This document shows, piece after piece, positions 37,612-64,000 of a stretch of DNA of 64,000 bases. The DNA comes from Anaerohalosphaera lusitana. GTDB lineage: Bacteria > Planctomycetota > Phycisphaerae > Sedimentisphaerales > Anaerohalosphaeraceae. The notes below the pieces were generated by a model. That model did not search any database and was not told where the DNA came from. It saw nothing but the letters and a program-made list of their open reading frames with translations. The position numbers and the translations under genes are program-made. The stretch is taken from the NCBI RefSeq assembly GCF_002007645.1, contig NZ_CP019791.1:2108001-2172000 (forward strand), read 5' to 3'. Each line of letters opens with the position of its first letter. Position 1 is the stretch's first letter.

Positions 37612-39103
37612 TAACACCAAACAGCCTTTATGCGACCAGGCCGCTATCTATCTTTACGATTATCTGAGTAAAGATCTATCGGCCGACGTCCCGCCGGAAA
37701 TGCGCACGCATATCGACAGTTGTCCGTACTGTCAGCAACAGCTCAAATTGCTGAAACAGGCTTGTGCAGCCGACATTGATGAATCTGTCGATGGCTCGCC
37801 AAACCCGAAAGCATTGAATGAGATGCTGAGCCTGCATTTTGAATTTGCCGGCCGAGAAGTTCGCTGCCGTGATGCCAAACCATTCCTGCCAAGCCTCGCT
37901 GATCACGAGCTCCGTGCCAGAATTGTTACGCCGATCACGGCACATGTCGAGCATTGCCCGCAGTGTCTCGACGATCTCAAAACGATCGCACAACTGAACT
38001 TGACCGGCGAACAGTACGGACATCTAAGCCGGTTACTCACAGGCGACGAAAACATTAAGCCGCAATCCTGCAGCGATGTAACAGAGCATATCGAAAACCG
38101 TATCTGCGAAGCGGTCCCGTATGCCGGCCTTTTCAACTCCTGCTTCGAGCATAATGAAGTTCCGGCTTCAGATCAGCCCAAGGACGCACTTACCGACCAC
38201 ATCGAGAATTGCCCTGCATGCCTGCAAAAGATGCACGAACTCCATAGCAAGATCGTTGCGATGGCTGATCGGCCCGATTCCGGCATAGTTACCGAGTTGA
38301 CCATTGAAGACGCTGCAAATGATGAAGATGGGGCCGAGCCTGCTGACGTTTTGCCGGTGCATATCGAGGTAAGAGATGACTCGCAAAACCCCGGCGAAAA
38401 GCACTCTCGACAGCATACAGGCAAAACCGCCGCAAAACTGCAGAGGTTCAACCACGGCAAACAGCTAATGAAAGCCGCCGTATTTCTCGGTGCTGTCCTG
38501 CTGATAGGCTGGTCGCTGATCAGCGTAAACACCGCCCAGGCCACTGATCTCGAAAAAATAAAACAAGCAATGGCCAAAGCCCGCAATGTGCATATGGCCA
38601 AACATCATCCATACACCGAGGAGGTGATTTATGAAAAATGGTACTCTCAGGAGCTTGGTATATACATACTCAAAAATTCTGATGGGACAAAGCTGGTAGA
38701 CCTTGAAGAAAAGATAAATATAATGATTGATTCGGGTGGGAACATTGAAAAAACGAAGGCCAGCGATGGAGATATCGAAAACGCAAAACGCCAGCTTAGA
38801 AATGGCTTTGGATTGGTCCCATTCTCCGAGACTGAAAAGGACAAAAACCTGAATTGGCAGCAAATCTCAAGTGACGAACGTACAAAAACTTATGCACGCA
38901 AATACAAAAAAGAGCAATACAGCGGCCCGCCGGTTCCATACGAAAGCAAGTTTGTTGTCGAAGCTGATACCTTGTTCCCAATTCGGTACGAATCATACAG
39001 CAAAACACGACTTGATCGCACAATGTCACTGAAAACTCTCATTACTGCTGAGCAGATCAGTACGGAGCAAATGCAAAAAGTTATAGACGACATATGTCTA
39101 TGA
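37604..39103 (+). CDS. Anti-sigma factor with three zinc-binding (ZAS) repeats, membrane anchored
   Basis: 499 residues from the ATG at 37604, which overlaps the sigma stop. Three copies of the zinc anti-sigma pattern C-x25/30-H-x3-C-x2-C are present: C10/H36/C40/C43, C88/H114/C118/C121 and C168/H199/C203/C206. A single membrane span (about 290-309) leads to a 190-residue external domain with a lipoprotein-carrier-like beta pattern. Normal anti-sigma factors carry one ZAS domain. The external part presumably senses an envelope signal and releases the sigma factor. The gene ends 2 bases before the convergent pseudopilin gene. Confidence 0.85.
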   Translation: MVDNTKQPLCDQAAIYLYDYLSKDLSADVPPEMRTHIDSCPYCQQQLKLLKQACAADIDESVDGSPNPKALNEMLSLHFEFAGREVRCRDAKPFLPSLADHELRARIVTPITAHVEHCPQCLDDLKTIAQLNLTGEQYGHLSRLLTGDENIKPQSCSDVTEHIENRICEAVPYAGLFNSCFEHNEVPASDQPKDALTDHIENCPACLQKMHELHSKIVAMADRPDSGIVTELTIEDAANDEDGAEPADVLPVHIEVRDDSQNPGEKHSRQHTGKTAAKLQRFNHGKQLMKAAVFLGAVLLIGWSLISVNTAQATDLEKIKQAMAKARNVHMAKHHPYTEEVIYEKWYSQELGIYILKNSDGTKLVDLEEKINIMIDSGGNIEKTKASDGDIENAKRQLRNGFGLVPFSETEKDKNLNWQQISSDERTKTYARKYKKEQYSGPPVPYESKFVVEADTLFPIRYESYSKTRLDRTMSLKTLITAEQISTEQMQKVIDDICL

Positions 39104-39105
39104 CT

Positions 39106-39909
39106 TCATCTGGGCAGCCATAAAGGCCGGAGATTCTTGTATTCCTCAGAATTGGGTTCCGACGTCACCTTCAGCGATTCAGCAGAGAGTTTTTCAACAT
39201 GCCCGTCAACAAAAGCAGCATTTACCGTTCTATTTGAATGTCTGCCGTATACCGCATCCTCGCGGAGACCCTCATGAAGATTCTTGTATGGATTTATGCT
39301 CATGCCCGGTACATATGCTTTCTTTTCCAGCAATGGTTCTTGTTTATACGGTGGATATCGGGTAACGTCCCACCAGCCGATCATCGTATAACCGCTGTCC
39401 AGCAAAAGCACGGTCCTGCTCGGCGAAAGCACCTGATCAGCCGAAAGTGATTCACCTGCGAATTCTCTTCTTACAATGTAATCTTGCGCACTGCGGCAGA
39501 TGGAGTTGTTGACACCATAATTGCCCACCAGCATGTTAGTCTCGAATTTATAAGTTGGTACGTTTCGTGCTGGACAGATCAGCACATCCTTCTCACCCCT
39601 ATCTACAAACCTGTTGTAAAGGCCCAAATGGTTGAACCACCATATCCCCATTCTGTCGTAAGCTGCATTTCCAGCATATCCATTCGGAGGCGGTAACAAT
39701 GATATGTTGTCGATGCCCAGTGGGAAGCTGCCGTGGTCGGAGTCGTACATCGTCATCATTACTGACAGTTGCCGGATATTTGATCGGCAGCAGACATCTC
39801 TGGCCTTGCTTCGCACTGTACGAAGCACCGGCGCGACGATAGCCATCAACAAACCCATTATGCCTATCACGACAAGTAGCTCGACTAACGTAAAACCCCT
39901 GATTTTCAT
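39106..39909 (-). CDS. Type II/IV pseudopilin-like protein, planctomycete H-X9-DG type
   Basis: 267 residues. The prepilin peptidase site is RG/FTLVELLVVIGIMGLL, followed by the hydrophobic helix that anchors and assembles pseudopilins. SNIRQLSVMMTMYDSDHGSFP and the C-terminal HSNRTVNAAFVDGHVEKL (His, nine residues, Asp-Gly) are characteristic of the large pseudopilin family expanded in Planctomycetes and Lentisphaerae. These proteins are exported and presumably surface-associated; individual roles are unknown. Convergent with the anti-sigma gene and separated by 2 bases. Confidence 0.88.
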   Translation of the reverse strand: MKIRGFTLVELLVVIGIMGLLMAIVAPVLRTVRSKARDVCCRSNIRQLSVMMTMYDSDHGSFPLGIDNISLLPPPNGYAGNAAYDRMGIWWFNHLGLYNRFVDRGEKDVLICPARNVPTYKFETNMLVGNYGVNNSICRSAQDYIVRREFAGESLSADQVLSPSRTVLLLDSGYTMIGWWDVTRYPPYKQEPLLEKKAYVPGMSINPYKNLHEGLREDAVYGRHSNRTVNAAFVDGHVEKLSAESLKVTSEPNSEEYKNLRPLWLPR

Positions 39910-40008
39910 GCGGGCATAATAATTGGCTTTCCCTGCCGGGTCAAAACAAAACGCCCCGGATATACAAAACAGCGTTTTGAGGGAAACCCTGGACCCGGCC
40001 AGAACGAA

Positions 40009-40017
40009 TTATCCACC
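40009..40017 (+). other. DnaA-box-like nonamer
   Basis: TTATCCACC differs from the consensus TTATCCACA in its last base. It is a lone site in the 227-base gap where the strand composition changes. Alone it does not define an origin. Confidence 0.25.
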
Positions 40018-40030
40018 TGGCAGAATGCGC

Positions 40031-40059
40031 TTGCCTTAAACCCTTAAAGCATGTAAAGT
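40031..40059 (+). promoter_or_regulatory. Candidate promoter of aspartate kinase gene
   Basis: TTGCCT, 17 bases, TAAAGT. The transcript would start near 40066, just ahead of the hairpin at 40073-40094. Confidence 0.4.
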
Positions 40060-40072
40060 TATGGGGATTTGC

Positions 40073-40094
40073 GCCCGGACGGGAACGTTCGGGC
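40073..40094 (+). promoter_or_regulatory. Leader hairpin upstream of aspartate kinase
   Basis: GCCCGGACG and CGTTCGGGC form a 9-bp stem (one G-U pair) capped by the GNRA tetraloop GGAA. A short T-rich stretch (TTCTTTT) follows 6 bases later. It could protect the 5' end or attenuate transcription; no lysine riboswitch core is seen. Confidence 0.45.
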
Positions 40095-40136
40095 AATGCT
40101 TCTTTTGCTAACTCAATACGAAAGATCAGGAACTAC

Positions 40137-41381
40137 ATGGCAACAGTTGTACAAAAATTCGGCGGTACATCGGTAGCGGACGCGGAGAAGATCCGGCGGG
40201 CGGCCGGCCGTGCGATTAAGGCCTACAACGAAGGCAACAAGGTTGTAATGGTCTGCTCGGCACGGGGTAAGCAGACGGATGAACTGATCGCGGACGCTCA
40301 TGAACTCAATCCAAACCCGTCAAAACGCGAAATGGACATGCTGCTGGCCACAGGTGAGCAGCAGACGGTGTCGCTGATGGCGATGGCGCTGGATGCGATG
40401 GGCCATAAGGCTATCAGCTTCAACGGCGCCCAGATCGGCATGGTGACAGACTCGGCCCACTCAAAGGCACGTATACAAAGTATTGATGCCAAGCGGGTTA
40501 AAAAGCAGCTCGACAACGGGCATATCGTCATCGTTGCAGGCTTTCAGGGCGTAGATGAAAAGGGCAATGTCACGACCCTTGGCAGGGGCGGATCGGATAC
40601 TTCAGCGGTCGCTCTGGCGGTGGCAATCGGGGCGGACGTTTGTGAGATATATACTGATGTGGACGGGATTTACAGTGCAGACCCGCGTAAATTTCCGGAC
40701 GCGGTCAAGCTCGAAGAGATCAGCTATGACGAGATGCTAGAGCTGGCGAGTTTGGGCGCGGGTGTGATGCACGGCAGGAGTATCGAATTCGGCAAGAAAT
40801 ATCATGTGCCGATACGGGTCCGCAGCAGTTTGAACGATAATCCAGGAACTCTAATTACAGATGAGGTACCACAAATGGAAGGCATTCTGGTTTCAGGTGC
40901 AACTATACAAAAAGATCTCGCTAAGATCGGCCTGCTCGGGGTGGACAATACGCCGGGTACGGCAGCACAGATATTCGCGCATCTTGCTGGTGCTAATGTA
41001 GTTGTGAACGATATCATTCAGGTTGAGCTCAGTCCTGATAAGGCGAATCTGTCGTTTACGATCAGTCATTCGGATCTGGAGGACGCTAAGAAGGCTATCA
41101 ACGAGATCAAAAAAGAGGTTAACTGCCAGTCCGTATTCGTGCGGGAGGATATTGCGGAGGTTTCAGCGGTTGGTGTCGGTATGAGATCGCACAGCGGTGT
41201 GGCGAACGCGATGTTCAACGCGCTGCGTGAGGCTGAGGTAAATGTAGATGCCATAACGACTTCTGAAATACGGATAAGCTGTCTCGTCAACGAGGACCAG
41301 GCAGAGCGGGCGCTGGTTGCGGTTTGCAAGGCGTTTGAACTGGACAAGCCGGAAGAGGAACGCACTTACAACGAGGCGTAA
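40137..41381 (+). CDS. lysC: Aspartate kinase
   Basis: 414 residues. The kinase signature KFGGTSVADAEKIRRAA opens the protein. RGGSDTSAVALAVAIGADVCEIYTDVDGIYSADPR is the nucleotide and aspartate binding region. The last 150 residues form two ACT domains (LAKIGLLGVDNTPGTAAQIF, EVSAVGVGMRSHSGVANAMF) that usually bind lysine and/or threonine for feedback inhibition. It catalyses the first step of lysine, threonine and methionine synthesis. Monocistronic. The start has AGGAA upstream. Confidence 0.96.
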   Translation: MATVVQKFGGTSVADAEKIRRAAGRAIKAYNEGNKVVMVCSARGKQTDELIADAHELNPNPSKREMDMLLATGEQQTVSLMAMALDAMGHKAISFNGAQIGMVTDSAHSKARIQSIDAKRVKKQLDNGHIVIVAGFQGVDEKGNVTTLGRGGSDTSAVALAVAIGADVCEIYTDVDGIYSADPRKFPDAVKLEEISYDEMLELASLGAGVMHGRSIEFGKKYHVPIRVRSSLNDNPGTLITDEVPQMEGILVSGATIQKDLAKIGLLGVDNTPGTAAQIFAHLAGANVVVNDIIQVELSPDKANLSFTISHSDLEDAKKAINEIKKEVNCQSVFVREDIAEVSAVGVGMRSHSGVANAMFNALREAEVNVDAITTSEIRISCLVNEDQAERALVAVCKAFELDKPEEERTYNEA

Positions 41382-41569
41382 GGCTGAAGGCTGTTTTTGA
41401 TGCCGTGAGGGCTGATTTTCGGAAGTGAAACCGGTTCGTAAGGGTCCGTAAATTTAGTGCTTTTTGCGTGGTATAGGGCGTTTCCGGTGCTGGTATGTCT
41501 GTTAGGGTGTGTGTTGTAAGTTGTTTTGGGAGTTGGGTTTAGGAGAGTTTAGCAATAGTTAGATACGCT

Positions 41570-42205
41570 ATGAGCCGTAATAAACGCAGGGCACTCATTG
41601 GGATGGGTGTCCTGCTTGTTTTTGGGGTTTCCATGCTGGATCGGTGGGGCGGGGACGGGCTGCGGGAGGTTGTTACGCGGGGTCGGCCTGAGGGGGCGGA
41701 TGCGGAGAAATATCATCGTAAGTCCTTTGCTGTCAATGAGATAATTGACGGCGATACTGTGGATATCGATGTGCCTGACGGGAAGTGGCCGGACACGCGG
41801 GTGAGACTTTTGGGGGTTGATACGCCTGAGACGAAGAGCCCCAGGTACGGGGAGATGTATTACGGGCCGGAGGCGACGGAGTTTACGCGGCAACTCGTTG
41901 CCGGCAAAGAGGTTACGGTGATCATTGATACGGTTAGCGATGTGCGGGACCGGTACGGTCGGCTGTTGGCGTACCTGGAGCTGGAGGATGGGCGGGTGCT
42001 GAATGCGGAGTTGGTACGTAAAGGCTTTGCGTATGCGGACTTACGGTTTTCACACAGCCGGTATGAGGAGTACGAAAACCTCATGATAGAGGCGGTAAAA
42101 GAGGGTCACGGGTTGTGGGAGGAGGTGGAGCGGGATGAGCTTCCGCAGTGGCTGAGAAGGGAGTGGCCGGGGATATTGAAATTGCGTGAAAAGGCGGTAA
42201 AATGA
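41570..42205 (+). CDS. Staphylococcal nuclease-like (thermonuclease) protein, membrane-anchored or exported
   Basis: 211 residues. One N-terminal hydrophobic segment (ALIGMGVLLVFGVSML) precedes a nuclease domain. The catalytic residues are in DGDTVDIDV, RVRLLGVDTPETK (Arg and the Asp/Glu set) and DRYGRLLAYL. The fold ends with LVRKGFAYADL. It would cut nucleic acid outside the inner membrane in a calcium-dependent way. No clear Shine-Dalgarno close to the ATG. The coding strand is very G-rich, as in all plus-strand genes from here on. Confidence 0.85.
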   Translation: MSRNKRRALIGMGVLLVFGVSMLDRWGGDGLREVVTRGRPEGADAEKYHRKSFAVNEIIDGDTVDIDVPDGKWPDTRVRLLGVDTPETKSPRYGEMYYGPEATEFTRQLVAGKEVTVIIDTVSDVRDRYGRLLAYLELEDGRVLNAELVRKGFAYADLRFSHSRYEEYENLMIEAVKEGHGLWEEVERDELPQWLRREWPGILKLREKAVK

Positions 42206-47795: not shown

Positions 47796-48638
47796 ATGCT
47801 GCGTACAATTTTGAATGTGATGCTGGTTGTGACGCTTTTGGGGGTTGTGGGATGTCCGCCGCCTGTGGAGGTGGAAGAGCCGTTGATGGAGTGCGAGCGT
47901 GATATGACGGTGGGTCGGCTTGTGGAGGTGTTGGATGCGCAGCGTGAGAATGCGGCGGCGTTGAAGGCGCGCGGGAGATTGAGTATCCGCTGGGTCGAGG
48001 AGGGGAAGATAAAGGAGGAGACGCCCGATGTGCAGGTCCGTTTTGTGCCGGAGAGCAAGCTGTTTCTGGACGGGCGGATACTTGGGCAGGAGGTGATCAG
48101 GCTCGGGACGAATGATGAGGAGTTCTGGCTGAGGATGAAGCCTGACGAGATCAGTATGTATCAGTGGGGGCGGTGGGAGGATGCCGCGAAGTGTCCGGGT
48201 CAGCAGCTTCTTAATCCGCACAATCTGCTGGAGGCGCTGGGGATGGTGCGGGTTGATGACGGGTATGACCTGACGATACGAGCGGGGGAGTATGTTTTGA
48301 CGGAGGTCGATGCGAGCGGGGGGTTTGCTAAGCGGGTTTATGTCGGCTGTGCGGATTACCTGGTGCGGAAGATCGAATATTACGGGGAGGACGGCAGGGT
48401 TGATGTCGTGATCGAGCTGGAGGAATACGAAGAGGTCGGCGAGGGGCATTTTGTGCCGACGCGGATCGGTATCATCAATCACGGTAAGAACAGCAGCAAG
48501 GCAGAGTTTATGCTGAGCAGCGTGGGGGTGTATGAAGATATAAAGCCCAAGGCTTTTGTGAGACCTGAGCCTGAGGGGATTAAGAATGTTTACAGGTTGA
48601 ATGAGAATTGTGAATTTGTCCGACAGACAAGAGAATAG
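47796..48638 (+). CDS. Lipoprotein with outer-membrane lipoprotein carrier-like beta fold
   Basis: 280 residues, with a lipobox LLGVVGC and the Cys at residue 20, followed by a Pro/Glu-rich linker. The mature part alternates short beta strands (LKARGRLSIRW, VQVRFVPESKLFLDGR, EFWLRMKPDEISMYQWG, KIEYYGEDG) in the manner of LolA/LolB-like domains. It would sit in the outer membrane or periplasm. RBS AAGGGGG is strong. The methyltransferase gene starts 10 bases after its stop. Confidence 0.7.
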   Translation: MLRTILNVMLVVTLLGVVGCPPPVEVEEPLMECERDMTVGRLVEVLDAQRENAAALKARGRLSIRWVEEGKIKEETPDVQVRFVPESKLFLDGRILGQEVIRLGTNDEEFWLRMKPDEISMYQWGRWEDAAKCPGQQLLNPHNLLEALGMVRVDDGYDLTIRAGEYVLTEVDASGGFAKRVYVGCADYLVRKIEYYGEDGRVDVVIELEEYEEVGEGHFVPTRIGIINHGKNSSKAEFMLSSVGVYEDIKPKAFVRPEPEGIKNVYRLNENCEFVRQTRE

Positions 48639-48648
48639 GAAGGAATTT

Positions 48649-49557
48649 ATGTCTGAGAGGAAACTACTCGAACGAATTAACGAAGGCGTATTCTTCATCG
48701 ACGGCGCGATGGGCACCGAGCTTATGGCCAGGGGCGCGAAGATGGGCGAGTGCAACGACCATCTGAACGTGACCGAGGAGGGCAGCGCGATAGTTAAGGC
48801 TGTGCATGCTTCATACCTGGCTGCGGGCAGTGATGCGGTGATAACGAATACATTCGGCGCGAATGCGATCACGCTGAAGCGGCACGGATATGCGGATCTG
48901 GCTGGGAAGATCAGCGAGGCGGGGGCGAAGATCGCTCGCGAGGCGGCGGATGCTGCTGGGGGGGATAGGTTTGTGTTCGGTGATATCGGGCCCTGCGGGG
49001 ATTTTCTGGAGCCGTTGGGGATGCTCAAGCGTGATGAGCTGCTGGCTGCGTTTCGTGAGCAGGCGAAGGGGCTTGCCGACGGCGGGGCGGATGCGATAAT
49101 AATCGAGACGATGACGGCGGTCGAAGAGATCGAGGTAGCGGTCGAGGCTGCGAAGTCGGTGTGTGATCTGCCGGTGTTCGCGAGTCTGGCGTATGATCCG
49201 GCGGGCGAGGAGTACCGGACGATGATGGGTATCGATGCGGCAGCGGCTGTGGATCGGCTCGGCAATACGGGTGTCAGCGGTATCGGGTTCAACTGCGGTA
49301 CGCTTGATATGGAAGGCTATGTCGGGCTGGCGAAGGCGTATGCTGATGCGATCGGGGACAAGGGTCTGGTACTGCTAGCAGAGCCGAACGCGGGCAAGCC
49401 TGAGCTGGTGGAGGATAAGGCGATCTATTCGCTTTCGCCTGATGATTTCGCGGCGGCTGGTGAGAAGATAAAAGCTGTCGGTGCGGGTATCATGGGCGGG
49501 TGCTGCGGTACGTCGCCTGCGCATATCGAGGCGCTTGTCAAAAAGCTGCGGGGATGA
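48649..49557 (+). CDS. Homocysteine S-methyltransferase-family protein (BHMT/MetH N-domain type)
   Basis: 302 residues from the ATG at 48649, with AGGAAGG upstream. The zinc ligands are Cys in GFNCG and the CysCys pair in MGGCCGTSP. DGAMGTELMARG and NTFGANAITLKRHGY are signatures of the homocysteine-binding barrel. It is the size of the stand-alone MetH N-terminal domain or of BHMT. The methyl donor is uncertain; a corrinoid partner domain is not in the window. Confidence 0.88.
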   Translation: MSERKLLERINEGVFFIDGAMGTELMARGAKMGECNDHLNVTEEGSAIVKAVHASYLAAGSDAVITNTFGANAITLKRHGYADLAGKISEAGAKIAREAADAAGGDRFVFGDIGPCGDFLEPLGMLKRDELLAAFREQAKGLADGGADAIIIETMTAVEEIEVAVEAAKSVCDLPVFASLAYDPAGEEYRTMMGIDAAAAVDRLGNTGVSGIGFNCGTLDMEGYVGLAKAYADAIGDKGLVLLAEPNAGKPELVEDKAIYSLSPDDFAAAGEKIKAVGAGIMGGCCGTSPAHIEALVKKLRG

Positions 49558-54955: not shown

Positions 54956-54978
54956 ACCGGTTCAAGAAGAAGATTATG

Positions 54979-55012
54979 AAGCCCGCTGATCTTGTGATTG
55001 GCGGGCTTTTTT
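54979..55012 (+). terminator. Rho-independent terminator after the DUF1080 gene
   Basis: AAGCCCGC and GCGGGCTT form an 8-bp stem with a 14-base loop, then TTTT. It separates the oxidoreductase/DUF1080 operon from the sialic acid operon. Confidence 0.85.
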
Positions 55013-55052: not shown

Positions 55053-55081
55053 TTGACAATTTCGCGGCAAGCCGTTAATAT
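55053..55081 (+). promoter_or_regulatory. Promoter of the sialic acid operon
   Basis: TTGACA at 55053-55058, 17 bases, TAATAT at 55076-55081: a perfect -35 and spacing with a good -10. Predicted start near 55088. Confidence 0.75.
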
Positions 55082-55101: not shown

Positions 55102-55122
55102 ACTGTGCGAGGTTTTTGGAAG

Positions 55123-55827
55123 ATGAAATTAACTCCTGTTGCTAAGATGACGCTCGTGGATATGGCTGAAGGTAAGGTTCGCGAGGCGATAGTTGAATCG
55201 GGTATGAAAGTTGGGGATGTATTGCCCGGTGAGCTTGAGCTGGCCGAGCGGCTGGGGGTGAGTCGCAATGTTATGCGCGAGGCGCTGAGCCGTTTGCGGA
55301 TGCTGGGGGTGCTGGAGTCGAGAAAACGCCGGGGAATGGTTTTGAAGGAGCCGGACCTGCTGGACGGTCTGGCGAAGGTGATCGATCTGCCTGTGATAAG
55401 CAAGCCGGTAAAGCAGGACCTTTTTGAGCTGAGGCTGATAATCGAGCTTGGGATGGCGGAGCTGGTGTTCGATCGTAAGACGGATGAGGTGGTTGCTGAG
55501 CTGGAGGAGATAGTGGCTGAGGAGGAAAAGGAGAGCGGTGGAGGGGCCGTGGTGGCGCCCGAGGTGGAGGTAGATTTTCATACGCAATTGTTCAAGATGG
55601 CTGGGAATGGGACGCTGATGCGATTTCAGTCGCTTTTGGGGCCGTTTTTTGACTGGAAGAAGCAGGAGGGCGAGATCGCAAAGTTTCATGAGTCCGGCGA
55701 TGGTGTGACTCACAGGGATATTGTGGAGATACTGAAGGAGGGGACGAAGGCGGAATTTCTGGAGGCGATGCAGAGGCATTTACGGCCTCATGTGGAATGG
55801 ATAAATCAGAAGCGGTGTGAGAGTTAA
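55123..55827 (+). CDS. GntR/FadR-family transcriptional regulator
   Basis: 234 residues from the ATG at 55123 (GAGG ten bases upstream); a GTG at 55105 is an alternative. The winged helix is GELELAERLGVSRNVMREALSRLRMLGVLESRKRRGMVL. The C-terminal helical FCD domain carries metal-ligand type residues (ELRLIIELGMAEL, VDFHTQLFKMAGN, HRDIVEILKEG). It heads the operon for sialic acid breakdown, where E. coli uses the GntR-type NanR, so it is likely the local regulator responding to sialic acid or a breakdown product. Confidence 0.88.
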   Translation: MKLTPVAKMTLVDMAEGKVREAIVESGMKVGDVLPGELELAERLGVSRNVMREALSRLRMLGVLESRKRRGMVLKEPDLLDGLAKVIDLPVISKPVKQDLFELRLIIELGMAELVFDRKTDEVVAELEEIVAEEEKESGGGAVVAPEVEVDFHTQLFKMAGNGTLMRFQSLLGPFFDWKKQEGEIAKFHESGDGVTHRDIVEILKEGTKAEFLEAMQRHLRPHVEWINQKRCES

Positions 55828-55846
55828 TTCAATTTGAGGTATGATC

Positions 55847-57883
55847 ATGGGCAGGCGCGTTGGATTTTTCGGGCTTTTGGCAGTTGCTGTTTTCTGGGGT
55901 GTTGCGGGTTGTACGAGCGTGAGAGCGGCTGGTGATGATCCGGTGGTTGTGAATACTTCGTTCGAGGATTTTGAGCGGGGGGATTTTTCGGAGCTGGGTG
56001 CTGAGTGGGGCAAAGTATTAGCTGAGCGAGGTGATGTCCAGATCGATACGCATCATAAGAGCGGCAGTCAGTGTTTGAGGCTAATGGGCGGTGAGGGCCG
56101 ATCGGTTGTATTTGCTTTTGATGAGCCTGCGCTGGTTTATGAGATAGCTTTCTGGGCGGAGAGGTGGACTTCGCGTGCACCGTTCATGTTCCGTGTGGAC
56201 GTGAAAGGAACCGGCGGCTGGGAGGAAATTTTCAACGGCGATAAGGAAGTGCGGGTCGGCAGGGCGTTTTTGTCGCATGTGGTTATCCGGCCCGACAGTA
56301 AGATAAGTGCGGTGCGGTTCAGGTCTAATGCGCCCTCGGATACGGGGGTATTGATCGATGATCTGATGATCACGCGGCCCGTCAAGATGTCGGTGCAGTC
56401 AGTGAAGGCTGATCAGATTATCGTGCCGGTATGTCACAGGAACGAGCGTAATCCGCTTATGCGGGTCAATGTGACAACCTCCGGAAATCTCGAGCCTGCG
56501 TCGCTGGAGAAGATGGTGTTTGATCTTGAGGGAACTACGCAGGTAAGTGATATAGACGAGCTGAAGGTTTTTTACAGCGGCAGCGATGCGGGGTTTGGAG
56601 CAGGAGAGCAGTTCGGGATCGCGATGGTGCCTTATGGTAAGAGGGTGACATTCAGGGGACAGCAGCGTCTTGCTCATGGGGACAACTATTTCTGGCTTAG
56701 CTGCGAGCTGGATGAGGATGCGGACCTGATGCATAAGGTTGACGCGGTATGTGAGCGTGTCGAGATAAGCGGGTCGGCTGAGATGATCAAGCCTGCTGGT
56801 GAGAAGGATGACATTCGCAAGCGGATTGGTGTTGCGCTGCGTGATGCTGGCGATGACGGTGTACGGGCGTATCGGATACCGGGGCTTGCGACGACGAACG
56901 AGGGGACGCTGATCGCGGTTTATGATATTCGCAGGCACGGGATGGGGGATCTGCCGGGCAATATCGATGTGGGGATGAGCCGAAGTACGGATGGAGGACA
57001 GACATGGGAGCCGATGAAGGTGATCATGGATATGGGTGAGCCGCATGGACAGAATGGTGTGGGTGATCCGGCGGTTCTGGTTGATGATGTGACCGGAACG
57101 ATCTGGGTTTCGGCGCTGTGGAGCAAGGGTAACAACGGCTGGCACGGTTCTGGGCCGGGCTTGAGTCCGGATGAGACGGGGCAGTTTGTGCTCGCCAAGA
57201 GCGAGGATGACGGGAAGACCTGGTCGGAGCCTATAAATATTACGCGTCAGATCAAGAAGCCCGAGTGGCGGCTGCTGCTTCAGGGGCCGGGCAAGGGTAT
57301 TACGATGCGGGACGGTACGTTGGTTTTTCCTGCGCAGTTCCGTGATAAAAATGGAATGCCGCACAGCACGATCATTTACAGCAAAGACCGTGGTGAAACA
57401 TGGGATATCGGAACGGGTGCGAAGTCCAATACGACCGAGGCGCAGGTGGTCGAGCTTAATGACGGCAGTCTGATGCTGAATATGCGTGACAATCGGGGCG
57501 GCAGCAGGAGTGTTTATGTGACGGATGATCTGGGTAAGACGTGGGAGGCGCATCCCACGTCGCGGAAGGCTCTGATCGAGCCTGTGTGTATGGCGAGCAT
57601 TATCAGGTTCGCATCGGTGAAGGACGGCGATGAGCGGAACATACTGCTGTTCAGCAATCCTGATAGGCGATCGGGCAGGAAGGACATAACGATCAAGGCG
57701 AGTCTGGACGAGGGCATGACGTGGAAGGAAGAGAATGAGCTTTTGATACATGAGCCCTATTGTGCGGGATATTCGTGCATGACGAAGATTGATGACGAGC
57801 ATGTGGGGATATTGTATGAGGGCGGAGGGACCGCGCTGATGGTGTTCGAGAAGATACATATCGATGAGATCCTGGCTGAGTAG
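55847..57883 (+). CDS. Sialidase (GH33), lipoprotein
   Basis: 678 residues from the ATG at 55847 with GAGG upstream (an ATG 6 bases earlier is possible). Lipobox VAGC lies at about residues 19-22. Residues 40-180 are a carbohydrate-binding-like beta domain, 185-325 a linker domain, and 340-678 the six-bladed sialidase. YRIPGL is the Arg-bearing F/YRIP motif. Five Asp-boxes are seen (STDGGQTW, SEDDGKTW, SKDRGETW, TDDLGKTW, SLDEGMTW). A nucleophile-type Tyr is in EPYCAGYSC. It would cleave terminal sialic acids from glycans at the cell surface. The start of the catabolic operon fits. Confidence 0.92.
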   Translation: MGRRVGFFGLLAVAVFWGVAGCTSVRAAGDDPVVVNTSFEDFERGDFSELGAEWGKVLAERGDVQIDTHHKSGSQCLRLMGGEGRSVVFAFDEPALVYEIAFWAERWTSRAPFMFRVDVKGTGGWEEIFNGDKEVRVGRAFLSHVVIRPDSKISAVRFRSNAPSDTGVLIDDLMITRPVKMSVQSVKADQIIVPVCHRNERNPLMRVNVTTSGNLEPASLEKMVFDLEGTTQVSDIDELKVFYSGSDAGFGAGEQFGIAMVPYGKRVTFRGQQRLAHGDNYFWLSCELDEDADLMHKVDAVCERVEISGSAEMIKPAGEKDDIRKRIGVALRDAGDDGVRAYRIPGLATTNEGTLIAVYDIRRHGMGDLPGNIDVGMSRSTDGGQTWEPMKVIMDMGEPHGQNGVGDPAVLVDDVTGTIWVSALWSKGNNGWHGSGPGLSPDETGQFVLAKSEDDGKTWSEPINITRQIKKPEWRLLLQGPGKGITMRDGTLVFPAQFRDKNGMPHSTIIYSKDRGETWDIGTGAKSNTTEAQVVELNDGSLMLNMRDNRGGSRSVYVTDDLGKTWEAHPTSRKALIEPVCMASIIRFASVKDGDERNILLFSNPDRRSGRKDITIKASLDEGMTWKEENELLIHEPYCAGYSCMTKIDDEHVGILYEGGGTALMVFEKIHIDEILAE

Positions 57884-57922: not shown

Positions 57923-58999
57923 ATGATATCGCGTGAGAGAGTATTGCTGGCCCTGAATCATATCGAGCCGGACAGGGTGCCATTTTTCTATCGGGATGTG
58001 CCCGAGGCTGAGTTCCATGTTTTGAAGGAGCTTGGGCTTAGCAGCCGGGATGAGCTGCTGGAGTATCTCGGTGTGGATTTTCGGTGGGTCGGGCCGGGGT
58101 ATGTCGGTCCGAAGCTGTTCGATCCGGAGACAGGGATAAAGCGCGATATCTGGGGGATCGAGTACAAGTATGTGAAACTTGGTGAACGTAACGGTTACTG
58201 GGAGACGGTGAGTAATCCGCTTGCGGAGTGTAAGAGTGTGGAAGAGCTGGAGGAGTATGAGTGGCCGAGGGTCGAATGGTTTGATTTTTCTGTGGTCACT
58301 GAGAAGGTTCGCAAGTACAAGGATTACGCGATCATGACCGAGCCGGGGTTTGCGTCGCCTAGTCTGTTTCAGTGTCCTGTTCAGGGGCTGCTGGGGCAGG
58401 AGAGAGCGTTTATGGATGTGATCTCGGACAGCGAATTTTTCGAGGCGATGGTCGAGAAGGTTCTCGAGTTCCAGCTTCCGTTTATTGACATGATGCTGGA
58501 GGCGGGCGGGGGCAGGATCGATCTGTTTCGGATAGGGGACGATTTCGGGACGCAGCGGGGGTTGCTGATGAGTCCGGTGCAGTGGCGGAAGGCGCTTCGG
58601 CCTGGATTGAAGGCGATGTGTGAGCTGGCGGAAAATCATCACGCGCATATTTACATGCATTCGTGCGGTGCGGTGCGTGATCTGATACCTGATCTGCTGG
58701 AGCTTGGGGTGGAGGTGCTGGATCCTTTACAGGTGACGGCGCATGGGATGGTGCCGGCTGAGCTTAAGGAGGCATATGGTGATAAGCTTTGTTTTTCGGG
58801 CGGTGTTGACGAGCAGCATCTGCTGCGTGAGGGTGATGAGCGGGCTGTATGTGAGAGTGTTGTTGAGCTGTTGGATGATATGGCGAAAGGCGGGGGATTT
58901 TTTATTGGGCCGACGCATAATTTTGAGGCAGATATTCCGGTGGGGAATATACTGGCTATGTACAGGGCGGCGGGTGATTGGTCGCAGTCGAACTATTGA
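57923..58999 (+). CDS. URO-D/MtaA-like methyltransferase-family protein, copy 1
   Basis: 358 residues from the ATG at 57923, with GGAG upstream. ISRERVLLALNHIEPDRVPFF is the family start. MHSCGAVRDLIPDLLELGVEVLDPLQ contains the H-x-C zinc-type motif of corrinoid methyltransferases (MtaA, CmuA), which true heme-pathway HemE proteins lack. It therefore more likely moves a methyl group or acts on a methylated compound than decarboxylates uroporphyrinogen. It lies between sialidase and epimerase genes. No corrinoid-binding protein is encoded here. The substrate is unknown. Confidence 0.8.
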   Translation: MISRERVLLALNHIEPDRVPFFYRDVPEAEFHVLKELGLSSRDELLEYLGVDFRWVGPGYVGPKLFDPETGIKRDIWGIEYKYVKLGERNGYWETVSNPLAECKSVEELEEYEWPRVEWFDFSVVTEKVRKYKDYAIMTEPGFASPSLFQCPVQGLLGQERAFMDVISDSEFFEAMVEKVLEFQLPFIDMMLEAGGGRIDLFRIGDDFGTQRGLLMSPVQWRKALRPGLKAMCELAENHHAHIYMHSCGAVRDLIPDLLELGVEVLDPLQVTAHGMVPAELKEAYGDKLCFSGGVDEQHLLREGDERAVCESVVELLDDMAKGGGFFIGPTHNFEADIPVGNILAMYRAAGDWSQSNY

Positions 59000-59023
59000 G
59001 AATGTCAGGTAAAGGGTTACAGA

Positions 59024-60208
59024 ATGAGTTGGGATAAGGCAGCTAAATACGCAGAGGTTTACAGGAAAGAGCTTTTCGAGAGCGTAATGCCTTTCTGGGA
59101 TGAATACTCTGTGGACAGTGAGTTCGGCGGATATTTTACGTGTCTGAACAGGGAGGGCGAGGTTTTCGATACGGATAAGTTTGTATGGCTGCAGTGCCGG
59201 CAGGTGTGGACGTATGCGATGCTGTACAATCGGTGCGAGAAGCGTGAGGAATGGCTCGAGGTCGCCAACAACGGTGCGGATTTTCTGGCTCTGCACGGTA
59301 TGGATGGTGAGGGCAACTGGTACTTTGCGCTGAATCGCGAGGGCATGCCGCTGGTGCAGCCTTACAATATATTCAGTGACTGCTTTGCGGCGATGGCTTT
59401 TGCTCAGTATGGCCTGGCGTGCGGGAGTGAGAAGGCGATCGATATTGCGTCTAAGACATACAGGAACATACTTCGGCGGAAGGACAGGCCCAAGGGCAAG
59501 TATACCAAGGCGGTGGACGGGACGCGGGATATGAAGGGGATGGCGCTGCCGATGATACTGGCGAATCTGACGCTTGAGCTGGAGGAGGTGCTGTCGGAAG
59601 ATGAGGTCGAGTCTACGCTGGACATGTGCATCGATGAGGTGATGGGGCTGTTCCTGGATGAGCGGAAGGGGATTCTTTACGAGAACGTCGGGCCTGACGG
59701 ATCGCATGTGGACTGTTTTGACGGGAGGCTGATCAATCCGGGGCATGGGATCGAGTCGATGTGGTTCATGATGGACGTTGCGAAAAGGCGGGGCGATAAG
59801 GAGCTGATCGAGCGTGCGGTACAGGTTGTGCTGAATACGCTGGAGTATGGATGGGACGAAGAATATGGCGGAATATTTTATTTCATGGATGCCGAGGGCA
59901 GGCCGCCTCAGCAGTTGGAGTGGGATCAGAAGCTGTGGTGGGTGCATCTGGAGGCGCTGGTCGGACTGATAAAGGGATATAATCTGACGGGCAGGCAGGA
60001 ATGTCTGGACTGGTTCGAGAGGGTGCATGAGTATGCGTTCGGCGGGTTCTCGGATCCGAAGTTTGGTGAGTGGTTCGGGTATTTGAATCGGCGTGGTGAA
60101 GTGCTGATGCCGTTGAAGGGCGGTAAATGGAAGGGATGTTTCCATGTGCCTAGAGGGCTGTACTTGTGCTGGCGTGAGTTCGAGAATCTTGGGGGTGAGG
60201 GCGAATAG
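59024..60208 (+). CDS. AGE-family epimerase (N-acylglucosamine/ManNAc 2-epimerase-like)
   Basis: 394 residues, the normal size for the (alpha/alpha)6 barrel family that includes renin-binding protein/GlcNAc 2-epimerase and cellobiose epimerase. [50 protein letters not shown] and [14 protein letters not shown] (catalytic His region) are typical. Next to a neuraminate lyase the obvious reaction is ManNAc to GlcNAc. The gap to the esterase gene is 8 bases. Confidence 0.9.
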
Positions 60209-60216
60209 AGGACGGA

Positions 60217-61716
60217 ATGCGAATTTGTGTTAATGTGATAATTTTGATGGTCGTTACGCTTGCGGGTGTAAGTGCGGGGGCGGTGCGGCTGCCGGATATA
60301 TTCGGCGATCACATGGTGGTGCAGCGTGATGAGGAGCTTAAGGTTTGGGGCTGGGCCGAGCATGGTGAAGATGTGCGGGTGAGTTTCAAGGGTAAGGTTG
60401 CGAAGGATACAGCGGATGCTGCGGGGCGATGGTTGGTGGATCTTGGAAAGTATGAAGCGAGCTGTGAGCCGGCGGAGTTGAAGGTTGAAGGTGAGAATAC
60501 AGTGGTGGTTAAGGATGTGCTGGTTGGGGATGTGTGGGTGTGTTCGGGGCAGTCGAATATGTATTTTCCGTTGAAGCGGTCGGCCAATTATGAGGCGTTG
60601 AAAGGGTCATTGGATAATAAGATGATCAGGCTGATGCGGATGGTGCCGGGGGCCTATCCGAGTGGGCGGCAGTTCAGTGATGAGGAGCTGGCGAAGTGTG
60701 TGCCGGTTGAGTATTATGAGGGTGGATGGGAGAGGTGCAGTGAGGAGGCGGCTGCGGAGTTTTCGGCGGTGGCGTATTATTTCGGTGCGGAGATCGAAAG
60801 GCACGTGGGGGTGCCGGTGGGGCTGGTGCAGAATGCGGTGGGAGGTGCACCTGCTGAGGCTTTTGTGAGTGAGGGGACGCTTGCGGAGGATGAAGTGCTG
60901 TGGGATGTTTGCGGGGACTGGCTGGGAAGTGAAGAGTATGCGCCGTGGTGTCGCGGGAGGGCGAAGCTGAATCTTGGGGATACGGCTGGTGATGCGGAAC
61001 AGGGGCATCCGTTCAAGCCTGGGTTTCTGTTCGAGGCGGGAATTGAGCCTTTGACGGATTTTGCGGTGAAGGGGGTGATATGGTACCAGGGCGAGTCGAA
61101 TGCGCCTTTAACGGTTGTTGATGAATCAACAGATATGGTGTATAACAAACGCCTGTTGAAGACTTTAATCGGTGACTGGCGGCGAGCCTGGGGGGATAGC
61201 GATCTGCCGTTTTTGTATGTGCAGCTTCCTAATATGAATCGCAGGTGGATGGAGTTCAGGCAGATGCAGCTCGAGGTTTTGCGAGAAGTACCTGGAGTTG
61301 GAATGGCTGTGAGTATAGATGTTGGGGATCGAAGAGATGTGCATCCGCGGAACAAGCGGCCCGTGGGGAGAAGGCTTGCTTTGATCGCGAGGGCGAAGGT
61401 TTATGGGCAGGATGTTGTGTATTCGGGGCCATTGCCTGTGGATGCTGTTGTGGAAGGAGCGGAGGTTGCGGTGAAATTGGAACATGCGGAGGCGTTGCAG
61501 GTCAGATCGGGAGAAAAGGTGCGAGGGTTTGAGCTGGTGGACAGTGCTGGTCGATGGCATGAGGCGGAGGCGAGGATAAAGAGTGATAAAGTCTTTGTGC
61601 TTTCGGATGAGGTTGAGGAGCCTTCGGCGGTGCGTTATTCGTGGGCGCCGAATCCGGAGGGGAACGTTGTGAATGGCGAAGGGCTGCCGATGAGTCCTTT
61701 CATTATATCATTATAG
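60217..61716 (+). CDS. Sialate O-acetylesterase, exported
   Basis: 499 residues with an N-terminal signal (VIILMVVTLAGVSAGA). VRLPDIFGDHMVVQRD is the family opening. The catalytic serine is in VCSGQSNM, followed by GVIWYQGESNA, and the Asp-His pair is in DVHPRNKRPVGRRLA. It removes 9- or 4-O-acetyl groups from sialic acids, which otherwise block sialidase and lyase. Co-transcribed with the epimerase (8-base gap) and lyase (39-base gap). Confident. Confidence 0.92.
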   Translation: MRICVNVIILMVVTLAGVSAGAVRLPDIFGDHMVVQRDEELKVWGWAEHGEDVRVSFKGKVAKDTADAAGRWLVDLGKYEASCEPAELKVEGENTVVVKDVLVGDVWVCSGQSNMYFPLKRSANYEALKGSLDNKMIRLMRMVPGAYPSGRQFSDEELAKCVPVEYYEGGWERCSEEAAAEFSAVAYYFGAEIERHVGVPVGLVQNAVGGAPAEAFVSEGTLAEDEVLWDVCGDWLGSEEYAPWCRGRAKLNLGDTAGDAEQGHPFKPGFLFEAGIEPLTDFAVKGVIWYQGESNAPLTVVDESTDMVYNKRLLKTLIGDWRRAWGDSDLPFLYVQLPNMNRRWMEFRQMQLEVLREVPGVGMAVSIDVGDRRDVHPRNKRPVGRRLALIARAKVYGQDVVYSGPLPVDAVVEGAEVAVKLEHAEALQVRSGEKVRGFELVDSAGRWHEAEARIKSDKVFVLSDEVEEPSAVRYSWAPNPEGNVVNGEGLPMSPFIISL

Positions 61717-61755
61717 AATTGAGAACAGACATTTGTATGAAGAGTGAGGCTTACT

Positions 61756-62670
61756 ATGAATTCTAGATTCAGTGGCATACTGGCGGCGGTATTTTCGCCG
61801 ATGGACGAAAACGGCAAGGTCAACACCGGCGTGGTGCCGGCGATCGTGGACAGTCTGGTTGCGGATGGAGTTTCCGGGATATATGTTTGCGGTAGTACTG
61901 GCGAGGGACCTTTGCTGGCTCGGGAAGAACGCATGGAAGTAGCGGAAGCGTACACAAAAGCATGCAAGGATAAGATGCCTGTGATAGTGCAGGTGGGTCA
62001 TGACAGTATTGCTGAGGCTAAGGTGCTGGCTGAGCATGCGGCCGGGCTGGGTGCGGATGCTGTGGCCGCGGTGCCGCCGACGTACTTTAAATGTCCGTCC
62101 GTGGAGAATCTGGTGGATTGTATGGCGGAGATATCTGAGGCGGCTGGGGATGCGCCTTTTTACTATTACCATGTGCCCGCGCTGACGGACGGGGTTTTCA
62201 GTATGGTAGACTTTCTTAGGCTGGGCGAGGGTAAGATAAGAAATCTGGAGGGGATCAAATACAGTGCACTGACGGTGTTCGAGTGCCAGGAGTGTTTGAA
62301 CTATGCGGAGGGCAAGTATAATATTCTGTTCGGCTGTGACGAGATGCTGCTGAGCGGGCTTGTTGTGGGTGTGCCGGGGGCAGTGGGGAGTACGTTCAAT
62401 TTTGCGGCGCCGCTGTATAACAAGATAATGGATGCGTATAAGGCGGGCGATCTGGAGAGGGCGAGGGAGCTGCAGCTTCTTTCGGTGAAGATGGTAAATA
62501 CGCTGTTCAAGTATCGCGGTCAGCCCGCGTTTAAGGCGATGATGGGTATACTGGGTGTGGACTGTGGCCCGAACCGTTTGCCGTTAAAGAGTCTGGATTC
62601 CGATGAGGTGGCTGCGTTGAAGAAGGACCTGGAAGATATAGGTTTCTTTGACTGGGGACGGACGCGGTAG
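61756..62670 (+). CDS. nanA: N-acetylneuraminate lyase (DHDPS/NAL family)
   Basis: 304 residues from the ATG at 61756, with GAGG upstream. The pyruvate-binding motif is GSTGEG, the Schiff-base lysine is in GIKYSALTVFE, and the catalytic tyrosine region reads FYYYHVPALTD, which matches the FYYYH-P-ALT signature of neuraminate lyases, not dihydrodipicolinate synthase. It splits N-acetylneuraminate to ManNAc and pyruvate in the cytoplasm. The flanking sialidase, esterase and epimerase support this strongly. Confidence 0.92.
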   Translation: MNSRFSGILAAVFSPMDENGKVNTGVVPAIVDSLVADGVSGIYVCGSTGEGPLLAREERMEVAEAYTKACKDKMPVIVQVGHDSIAEAKVLAEHAAGLGADAVAAVPPTYFKCPSVENLVDCMAEISEAAGDAPFYYYHVPALTDGVFSMVDFLRLGEGKIRNLEGIKYSALTVFECQECLNYAEGKYNILFGCDEMLLSGLVVGVPGAVGSTFNFAAPLYNKIMDAYKAGDLERARELQLLSVKMVNTLFKYRGQPAFKAMMGILGVDCGPNRLPLKSLDSDEVAALKKDLEDIGFFDWGRTR

Positions 62671-62750
62671 CTGAAAATTGGACGGGCGTATTTGCAAATT
62701 TGAGGAACCTGGTGATTACTCTCTGGGCGAAAGATTAAAGGCTTAGAATC

Positions 62751-63854
62751 ATGTTGTCCAAAGAACGTGTATTAGCGGCAATCGAACGGAGGCCGGCGGA
62801 CCGGATCCCCATTTACGACTCGTTCTGGCTGGACACAGTTGCGAGGTGGCGGCAAGAGGGTCTGAGCGAGGTAGTTTCCGTGCAGGATTACTTCGGCTTT
62901 GATATTCACGTGATGGGTATTGATGCGTCTCCACGGTTCAAGCCTGAGCTGCTCGAGACGGACGGTGAGATGGTGACTATTCGCGACCGGTTCGGTTATG
63001 TCGTCAAAAAGGAAAAAAACAAGTCCAGGACGATGATGTATTTATCGCATCCGGCAGAATCTCAGGAGCAGTGGGAATCGGTCAAGAGAGGTTTCAATAT
63101 CGATCCGGACGGCCCCGCGAGAGTAGCGAAGGATCCGTTTCCATTCAAGCTGGAGATGGGCGATTCGTGGCAGAAAGTGTATGAAGATTATTGTGATTTG
63201 CTTGAGAGCGGCAAATACATCCTCGGTTCTGCTTACGGTCCTCATGAGGCTATTCTAAGGCTGCACGGGTTCGAAAAGACGCTATACAGTCTTTGCGACA
63301 GTCCTGGTATGCTTACTGACATGGCTGAGACGTATTCTAATTTTTTGCTTCAGGTAATCAACGAGAGCCTTGAGAAGGGAGTACGTTTTGATGGTCTGTT
63401 TCTTGTCGAGGACCTTGCCGCTACGAACGGCATGCTGTTTTCGCCGGATCAGTGGCGAAATATATTCAAACCGTCGATGGCGAAAATCGGCGAATTCCTG
63501 GCGTCTAACGATCTGCACTTCTGGATGCACTGCTGCGGTAACGCTGAACCTGTGTTTGGGGATCTAATCGAATGCGGCGTGCAGGTTCTTAACCCTCTGG
63601 AGGCGAAATCCGGTCTGGATGTTTGTTGGCTCAAGGATAAGTACGGTGAAGACTTGACGTTTTTCGGCAACATCGATGCGATAAAGATGTCCGGCACGGA
63701 CGAGGAGATCGAGGAGGAACTGCAAAGAAAGGTTACCGCTGCTAAGCAGGGTGGTGGCTACATCTACCATTCGGATCATTCCGTGCCGCCGGAGGTATCG
63801 TGGGGCAGATATAAGCATATTATGGAAATGGTAAGTAAATACGGTAAATATTAG
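62751..63854 (+). CDS. URO-D/MtaA-like methyltransferase-family protein, copy 2
   Basis: 367 residues. LSKERVLAAIERRPADRIPIYDSFW is the family start. MHCCGNAEPVFGDLIECGVQVLNPLEAKSG carries the same H-x-C motif as copy 1, and VEDLAATNGMLFSPDQWRNIFKPSMAKI is the usual barrel region. It is a distant paralogue of 57923-58999, separated from it by three sugar genes. Two such proteins in one sialic acid operon are unexpected; they might handle a methylated sialic acid or glycan. Function unproven. Confidence 0.8.
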   Translation: MLSKERVLAAIERRPADRIPIYDSFWLDTVARWRQEGLSEVVSVQDYFGFDIHVMGIDASPRFKPELLETDGEMVTIRDRFGYVVKKEKNKSRTMMYLSHPAESQEQWESVKRGFNIDPDGPARVAKDPFPFKLEMGDSWQKVYEDYCDLLESGKYILGSAYGPHEAILRLHGFEKTLYSLCDSPGMLTDMAETYSNFLLQVINESLEKGVRFDGLFLVEDLAATNGMLFSPDQWRNIFKPSMAKIGEFLASNDLHFWMHCCGNAEPVFGDLIECGVQVLNPLEAKSGLDVCWLKDKYGEDLTFFGNIDAIKMSGTDEEIEEELQRKVTAAKQGGGYIYHSDHSVPPEVSWGRYKHIMEMVSKYGKY

Positions 63855-63869: not shown

Positions 63870-64000
63870 ATGCTGAGGAAGATTTCATATTTTGTTTTGT
63901 TGGTTGTGCTGGTTTTAGCTGCAACGGCAAGTGCCCAGCAGCAGGTTGACAAGGATTATCTGGACTGGTCTCAGTTGCCGGAGCTGCCTGATGAGCTTGG
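63870..64000 (+). CDS. Exported protein, cut by the window edge
   Basis: Only the first 43 codons are visible. ATG at 63870 with GGAG upstream, then a clear signal peptide (ISYFVLLVVLVLAATASAQ) with a cleavage site near Ala-Gln. The mature start (QQVDKDYLDWSQLPELPDELG) shows no recognisable domain. It starts 15 bases after the methyltransferase-like gene, so it belongs to the operon and may be another glycan-degrading enzyme. Confidence 0.7.
   Translation, partial: MLRKISYFVLLVVLVLAATASAQQQVDKDYLDWSQLPELPDEL

Follow-up and report, generated by a model that had tools for sequence, protein, structure and literature searches.

Two URO-D-fold proteins in a planctomycete sialic acid operon and their proposed part in corrinoid-dependent demethylation of methylated sialic acids

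Why would an operon for the use of sialic acid encode two proteins that resemble corrinoid methyltransferases, and on what might they act? The question is raised by a 64,000-nt stretch of the genome of Anaerohalosphaera lusitana (NZ_CP019791.1, positions 2,108,001 to 2,172,000; G000:C1 in our labels), called the window below. Eight of its genes follow one another in the order NanR-like regulator, sialidase, UroD1, N-acylglucosamine 2-epimerase (AGE), sialate O-acetylesterase family protein (SASA), N-acetylneuraminate lyase-like protein (NanA), UroD2, and a fusion of NanM to a sodium:solute symporter (NanM-SSF). With sialidase, lyase, epimerase, and transporter genes side by side, this is a sialic acid catabolic operon, and one transcript is likely because the gaps between the genes are only 8–80 bases. 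An earlier reading of the letters alone (the original prediction) had placed UroD1 and UroD2 (proteins P0001 and P0002) in such an operon. Both reading frames exist as it gave them, and the setting is borne out by domain and NCBIfam matches and extends past the window by the NanM-SSF fusion. On balance, we favor the view that methylated sialic acids are handled by a corrinoid O-demethylase system in which UroD1 serves as the substrate-specific methyltransferase (MT1).

The link of UroD1 to sialic acid recurs in its relatives. A scan of genome contigs found 17 of them at 44–57% identity, plus one distant match. These 17 are labeled as Bacteroidetes groups, save one metagenome-assembled genome labeled Chlorobiota, and a search within the family of one relative's genome added two more (56% and 52%). 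The five relatives at 52–57% (loci L020, L021, L036, L118, and L119) are all from Bacteroidota and lie, without exception, among sialic acid genes. L020, L021, L036, and L119 include a sialidase, and SASA, NanA, NanM-SSF, AGE, and sulfatases occur in varying sets; L118 has SASA, NanA, NanM-SSF, and AGE, and no sialidase in the stretch examined. In the tree, P0001 and these five form one clade (support 99/95), which is found with sialic acid genes in 6/6 cases and in two phyla. Its sister clade (support 100/100) is mainly from Marinilabiliaceae, at 44–49% identity, and several times its genes adjoin those for an ABC-F ATPase and a TrmH-type rRNA methyltransferase (both named by eye). Because no planctomycete match above 39% is among the matches listed in 392 sampled genomes of the phylum, UroD1 probably moved between phyla, and it probably did so together with sialic acid genes.

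Corrinoid genes stand beside several UroD relatives. In L118 (Prolixibacteraceae genome G1062), the gene for a corrinoid carrier (B12-binding_2 plus B12-binding domains, with the motif D-L-H-D-I-G) lies 27 bases 3' of UroD1. It is followed on the same strand by genes for an MtaA-thioredoxin fusion, CobW, a Met_synt_B12 activation protein, a sulfatase (named by eye), a creatininase, a second UroD, a GDSL/SASA protein, NanA, NanM-SSF, and AGE. Another locus (L139:1-7366, genome G555) combines a beta-galactosidase-like GH2 protein and a galactokinase with a UroD, a corrinoid carrier, MtaA-thioredoxin, and CobW. This looks like a corrinoid demethylation system within a galactose operon, perhaps for methylated galactose. 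In the planctomycete G039 (L134:7630-11576), a corrinoid carrier, two UroDs, and a homocysteine S-methyltransferase are encoded in a row; over the aligned part, P0002 shares 36% identity with the first of these UroDs, and the methyltransferase of the window shares 41% with the one here. The adjacency of UroD and carrier genes in L118, L139, and L134 is our main evidence that proteins of this family exchange methyl groups with corrinoids, in one direction or the other. A part for methyl transfer in the use of sialic acid is in turn supported because the relatives of UroD1 co-occur with sialic acid genes and because L118 holds a complete corrinoid set. Of the earlier proposal that UroD1 and UroD2 might demethylate O-methylated sialic acids or another methylated sugar, the methyl transfer has gained ground, and for UroD1 it is well supported by context; a methylated sialic acid stays the presumed substrate. 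In the other genomes of the UroD1 clade, the carrier is encoded apart from the sialic acid genes: in G549 and G551, where it is grouped with MtaA-thioredoxin, homocysteine methyltransferase, and CobW, and in G1084, where it is grouped with the first two of these; in G550, the three partners share one short contig and the carrier is on another. As an aside, the creatininase-family amidohydrolase of L118 (16138-16902), between the sulfatase and the second UroD, might perhaps remove an N-acyl group.

To what family do UroD1 and UroD2 belong? Both match Pfam URO-D (57.6 and 72.4 bits, respectively; cut-off 23.9), and they are only 26% identical to each other. The HemE (uroporphyrinogen decarboxylase) cut-off of 302.95 bits is reached by neither (no match for P0001, 18.6 bits for P0002), nor are the cut-offs of the MtaA/CmuA models TIGR01463, NF004889, and NF040654 (TIGR01463, 41 and 35.2 bits against 235.4; NF004889, 37.5 and 44.3 bits against 244). 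The predicted structure of P0001 (predicted local distance difference test, pLDDT, 90.4) aligns with MtaA (4ay7) over 304 residues at Z 26.1 (3.2 Å, 19% identity, the highest identity), which ties with uroporphyrinogen decarboxylase (UROD; Z 27). The best PDB match of a profile made from UroD1 and its relatives is again 4ay7 (6.3e-13), in an alignment that pairs the H and C ligands, and the same profile matches CdmB weakly (3.5e-4). The model of P0002 was poor (pLDDT 63.4) and was set aside, and the fold of this protein is taken from its profile match only. On these matches, both proteins are members of the URO-D superfamily and are neither uroporphyrinogen decarboxylase nor MtaA. The label "MtaA-like" in the original prediction thus describes the fold well and the family identity poorly, given the low scores and the third metal ligand discussed below. 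The single-contig genome of 4.25 Mb has 18 URO-D matches, UroD1 and UroD2 among them. Ligand patterns vary among the 18 (H-x-C...C, H-x-C...H, and H-x-D...H), and several-fold more UroD genes are apparent in some other members of the class.

The H-x-C motif named in the original prediction is present in both proteins, as H246-S-C248 in P0001 and H260-C-C262 in P0002. It is invariant across the UroD1 alignment; the wider relatives of P0002 all keep the His, and some have Asp in place of the Cys. In MtaA (4ay7), we take the H, the C, and a third residue, also Cys, to be the zinc ligands. That third position is His332 in P0001 and His343 in P0002, and it is His in 6/6 members of the sialic clade. 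A His-Cys-Cys zinc site has been described in general terms for URO-D superfamily methyltransferases, of which those acting on S or Se keep His-Cys-Cys, whereas O-methyltransferases swap Cys for carboxylates or non-ligands (PMC10418091). As judged from the alignments, the His-Cys-His set matches neither type exactly, yet it departs from the thiol type. A further residue, R24 in the N-terminal loop of UroD1, is invariant in the sialic clade, is replaced by Trp in the sister clade, and was not found at this position in eight other relatives. It could be the residue that holds the carboxylate of sialic acid.

How might a demethylase serve such an operon? By carbon numbering, the lyase turns the 8-O-methyl group of N-acetylneuraminic acid into a 5-O-methyl group on N-acetylmannosamine (ManNAc), which blocks the pyranose ring, so that sialic acids of this sort would require a demethylase before they could be used in the normal way. 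In the route that we propose, the sialidase would free sialic acid, SASA would strip O-acetyl groups, and, in the Bacteroidota relatives, sulfatases would probably take off sulfate. The NanM-symporter fusion would then import sialic acid; UroD1 has no signal peptide that can be seen by eye. Zinc held by H246, C248, and H332 would activate the ether oxygen of O-methyl sialic acid (alternatively, of methylated ManNAc made from it by the lyase), and the methyl group would be taken up by cob(I)alamin bound to a small corrinoid carrier, which is encoded elsewhere here (G000:C1:660742-661332) and by the next gene in L118. From the carrier, it would move to a thiol acceptor and in the end probably to homocysteine, via the stand-alone homocysteine methyltransferase and/or MtaA-thioredoxin. 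UroD2 is probably another methyltransferase of this type that differs in its substrate or in the step it serves. The operon enzymes that act after import work on sialic acid and ManNAc, and this narrows the choice of substrate. Echinoderm sialic acids bear O-acetyl, O-sulfate, and O-methyl groups, and 8-O-methylation is abundant in starfish and sea cucumbers (PMC6994554). For their part, the operons code for an esterase, for UroD, and, in Bacteroidota, for sulfatases as well. The 8-O-methyl sialic acids seem to be the best-fitting substrate.

Among the members of the URO-D superfamily are known two-step O-demethylases (PMC13222342, PMC10418091); within its corrinoid methyltransferases, the substrate class proposed here is new and the ligand set is unusual. 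In the literature searched, we found nothing on point about UroD proteins with sialic acid or about corrinoid demethylation of sugars, no breakdown route for O-methylated sialic acids, and no oxygen-free demethylation of sugars. A wider proposal, which we put forward more tentatively, is that anaerobes in two or more phyla possess a corrinoid sugar O-demethylase that needs no oxygen and has a URO-D fold and a His-Cys-His site, with one version recruited to sialic acid operons and, independently, another to galactose operons. Through the former, sialic acids of marine animals that bear O-methyl groups (or, where sulfatases are present, O-sulfate groups) would become available as food, and the methyl group would be salvaged. 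If true, this would assign a function to one subfamily of the UroD-like families, which are large in planctomycetes and Bacteroidota and for the most part unassigned, and would tie sugar use to one-carbon and methionine metabolism.

Compared with UroD1, UroD2 is a weaker case, and the co-occurrence with sialidase or lyase genes that the original prediction proposed as a check divides accordingly: it is seen for UroD1 in all five close relatives, in another phylum, and is weak for UroD2. The only close relative of P0002 (45%; L039/L098) adjoins a BNR-domain protein, and relatives at 33–36% are in other gene settings. Two UroD genes per sialic acid cluster are found in the window, in L020, L036, and L118, and in the planctomycete G018 (L105). 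The pair in L020, L036, and L118 is UroD1 plus a separate H-x-D...H type, and G018 has two other UroDs, which lie between sialidases or close to them and are accompanied by NanM-SSF and a NanA-like gene. The UroD between the sialidases of G018 was considered as a member of the UroD1 clade and was rejected by the tree, and it therefore seems to have been recruited separately. Each lineage has a different partner UroD, none of them orthologs of one another, and the pairing therefore seems to have come about repeatedly. A rough Poisson estimate of finding at least two UroDs in the operon by random placement gives 8e-4 here, 2e-4 in G549, and 5e-3 in G018, calculated from approximate gene counts and for genes that favor sugar clusters.

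Which corrinoid parts does A. lusitana itself have? Besides the carrier located above, an MtaA-thioredoxin fusion and CobW are encoded in L127 (G000:C1 about 3819700-3822240). In this fusion (L127:7709-9334), which adjoins the CobW GTPase, F-x-C replaces H-x-C; the same fusion occurs in Bacteroidota. Within the window, a minus-strand gene for a protein with B12-binding_2 and B12-binding domains (13116-13850) was considered as a carrier and ruled out because it has no D-x-H-x-x-G. It has E-Q-G-E-L-G with a gap where the cobalt-binding motif is expected and is probably not a methyl carrier; a second, low-scoring protein like it is encoded in most genomes of the class. The earlier statement that no corrinoid protein is encoded nearby holds for the operon. 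Across 44 members of the class, with about 1 to 58 UroD-like candidates per genome, the idea that many UroD genes go with a stand-alone carrier as a shared hub failed, as the carrier is near universal at any UroD count; MtaA-thioredoxin is found in 5/44. Neither G000 nor G018 showed a full-length cobalamin-dependent methionine synthase (MetH). Both have a homocysteine methyltransferase frame of approximately 690 aa, along with a homocysteine methyltransferase and a carrier that each stand alone, and thus apparently a split methionine synthase, which the stand-alone carrier may mainly serve.

Several points weigh against a demethylase acting on methylated sialic acids. No corrinoid protein or Ram/RACE activase is encoded among the eight operon genes (the activase search covered the operon only), and corrinoid genes lie within the sialic acid operon in L118 alone, a single genome. 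Since the carrier is near universal in the class, finding it in this genome as well proves little. No sialic acid gene was seen in the fetched flanks of the sister clade, and three of its five examined genomes have no stand-alone carrier, so that UroD1-like proteins can work without one or act otherwise. In addition, His-Cys-His is absent from the ligand sets given for either S- or O-methyltransferases in PMC10418091, and the sialic acid linkage of UroD2 is much weaker than that of UroD1.

Other explanations can be weighed against this one. The two proteins could be corrinoid methyltransferases for another methylated compound, for example, a neutral sugar released together with sialic acid (methylated galactose, fucose, or mannose). 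The UroD-corrinoid-MtaA set in the galactosidase-galactokinase operon of L139 would fit, as would the large number of UroD paralogs in these genomes (18 in A. lusitana). However, NanA, AGE, and the NanM-symporter all serve sialic acid or ManNAc, the window operon has no other sugar kinase or isomerase, and the UroD1 clade occurs with sialic acid genes only, and we consider such a substrate unlikely. Placement by chance, with two of 18 UroD genes falling in a sugar operon to no functional purpose, would draw on the abundance of these genes in the class, but it is hardly credible in view of the Poisson values above and of a conservation across phyla in which every member of the UroD1 clade lies with sialic acid genes.

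Quite different chemistry can also be imagined for this fold. Sialic acid is an alpha-keto acid, UroD1 is as similar in fold to UROD decarboxylases as to MtaA, and the sister-clade genomes noted above have no dedicated corrinoid carrier, all of which would suit, in place of a methyltransferase, a lyase, isomerase, or decarboxylase whose substrate is sialic acid or a compound derived from it. We think this decidedly unlikely given the H-x-C site, the failure of both proteins to reach the HemE model, and the corrinoid linkage in L118, L134, and L139. Thiol or selenol methyltransferases that are passengers of the operon and serve, like those of type 1 mlp clusters, in methyl-sulfur or methyl-selenium salvage are less plausible still, in our opinion very unlikely: His-Cys-Cys URO-D relatives do such chemistry (PMC10418091), and MtaA-thioredoxin and homocysteine methyltransferase are sulfur-side partners, but the third Cys is His throughout the sialic clade, unlike in the S and Se enzymes, and the operon has no sulfur or selenium genes.

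A demethylase of methylated sialic acids would resemble several known systems without coinciding with any. UroD1 shares with the soluble coenzyme M (CoM) methyltransferases MtaA/MtbA the URO-D fold and an H-x-C in the same place, and a corrinoid partner is found in the operon of one relative (L118). It differs in scoring far below the family cut-offs, in its third ligand, and in its catabolic sugar operon. As an MT1, it would be expected to work on the side of the methyl donor instead of on CoM. MtvB, OdmB, VdmB, MtoB, CdmB, and CmuA are of the same superfamily and have the role proposed here, from substrate to corrinoid, with a separate carrier and MT2 (PMC13222342). Their known substrates are methoxylated aromatics or halomethanes, whereas that proposed for UroD1 is an aliphatic sugar ether. 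Carrier and MT2 genes are adjacent in the orthologous L118 and the related L139, not in the window operon; the UroDs of L134 adjoin a carrier. Type 1 mlp clusters (Kountz and Balskus, PMC10418091) likewise combine several UroD-like proteins with a corrinoid protein. They have His-Cys-Cys (in Mlp2 and Mlp3), a methyl-sulfur/selenium role, and a Ram/RACE activase, in contrast to the His in third place in P0001 and P0002, the sugar operon, and the methionine-synthase-type activation protein (L118) of the UroD system. As described in PMC10033563, a cytochrome P450 demethylates 6-O-methyl-galactose from porphyran, and there, too, an O-methyl group is removed so that the sugar becomes usable. That route is oxidative, uses a monooxygenase, and yields formaldehyde, whereas the proposed UroD1 route would need no oxygen and would keep the methyl group.

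Table 1. Coordinates of the operon and associated features in the window (position 1 is its first nucleotide)
Feature	Position	Strand	Remarks
Stand-alone homocysteine S-methyltransferase	48601..49557 (ATG 48649)	+	Possible methyl acceptor step
Intrinsic-terminator-like hairpin	54978..55009	+	Sets operon apart from upstream gene; 1 found vs 0.4 expected in shuffles
Sigma-70-like promoter TTGACA-17-TAATAT, 5' of operon	55053..55081	+	10/12 matches; 1 found vs 0.6 expected, suggestive only
GntR/FCD regulator, NanR-like	55105..55827	+	Best NCBIfam match NanR, 75.7 bits, under its cut-off
Sialidase	55841..57883	+	BNR_assoc_N and BNR domains; YRIP and five Asp-box motifs seen in translation
UroD1 (P0001), URO-D-fold protein, 358 aa	57923..58999	+	Putative zinc site H246, C248, H332
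N-acylglucosamine 2-epimerase (AGE)	59024..60208	+	NF052547, 665 bits, cut-off 600
Sialate O-acetylesterase family protein (SASA)	60217..61716	+	Domain match
N-acetylneuraminate lyase-like (NanA), DHDPS superfamily	61744..62670	+	NCBIfam best match, 179.8 bits, below cut-off 281
UroD2 (P0002), URO-D-fold protein, 367 aa	62751..63854	+	Putative zinc site H260, C262, H343
NanM (Kelch)-sodium:solute symporter fusion, 890 aa, start	63872..64000	+	Continues past window (L019:8871-11543)

The NanM-SSF fusion that closes the operon is also found in Bacteroidota operons and, by similarity, in G018. Apart from the operon, the GC skew of the plus strand, mostly negative at first, becomes strongly positive (+0.24 to +0.45) at about 38000-42000 of the window, which gives a cumulative minimum like that of a replication origin.

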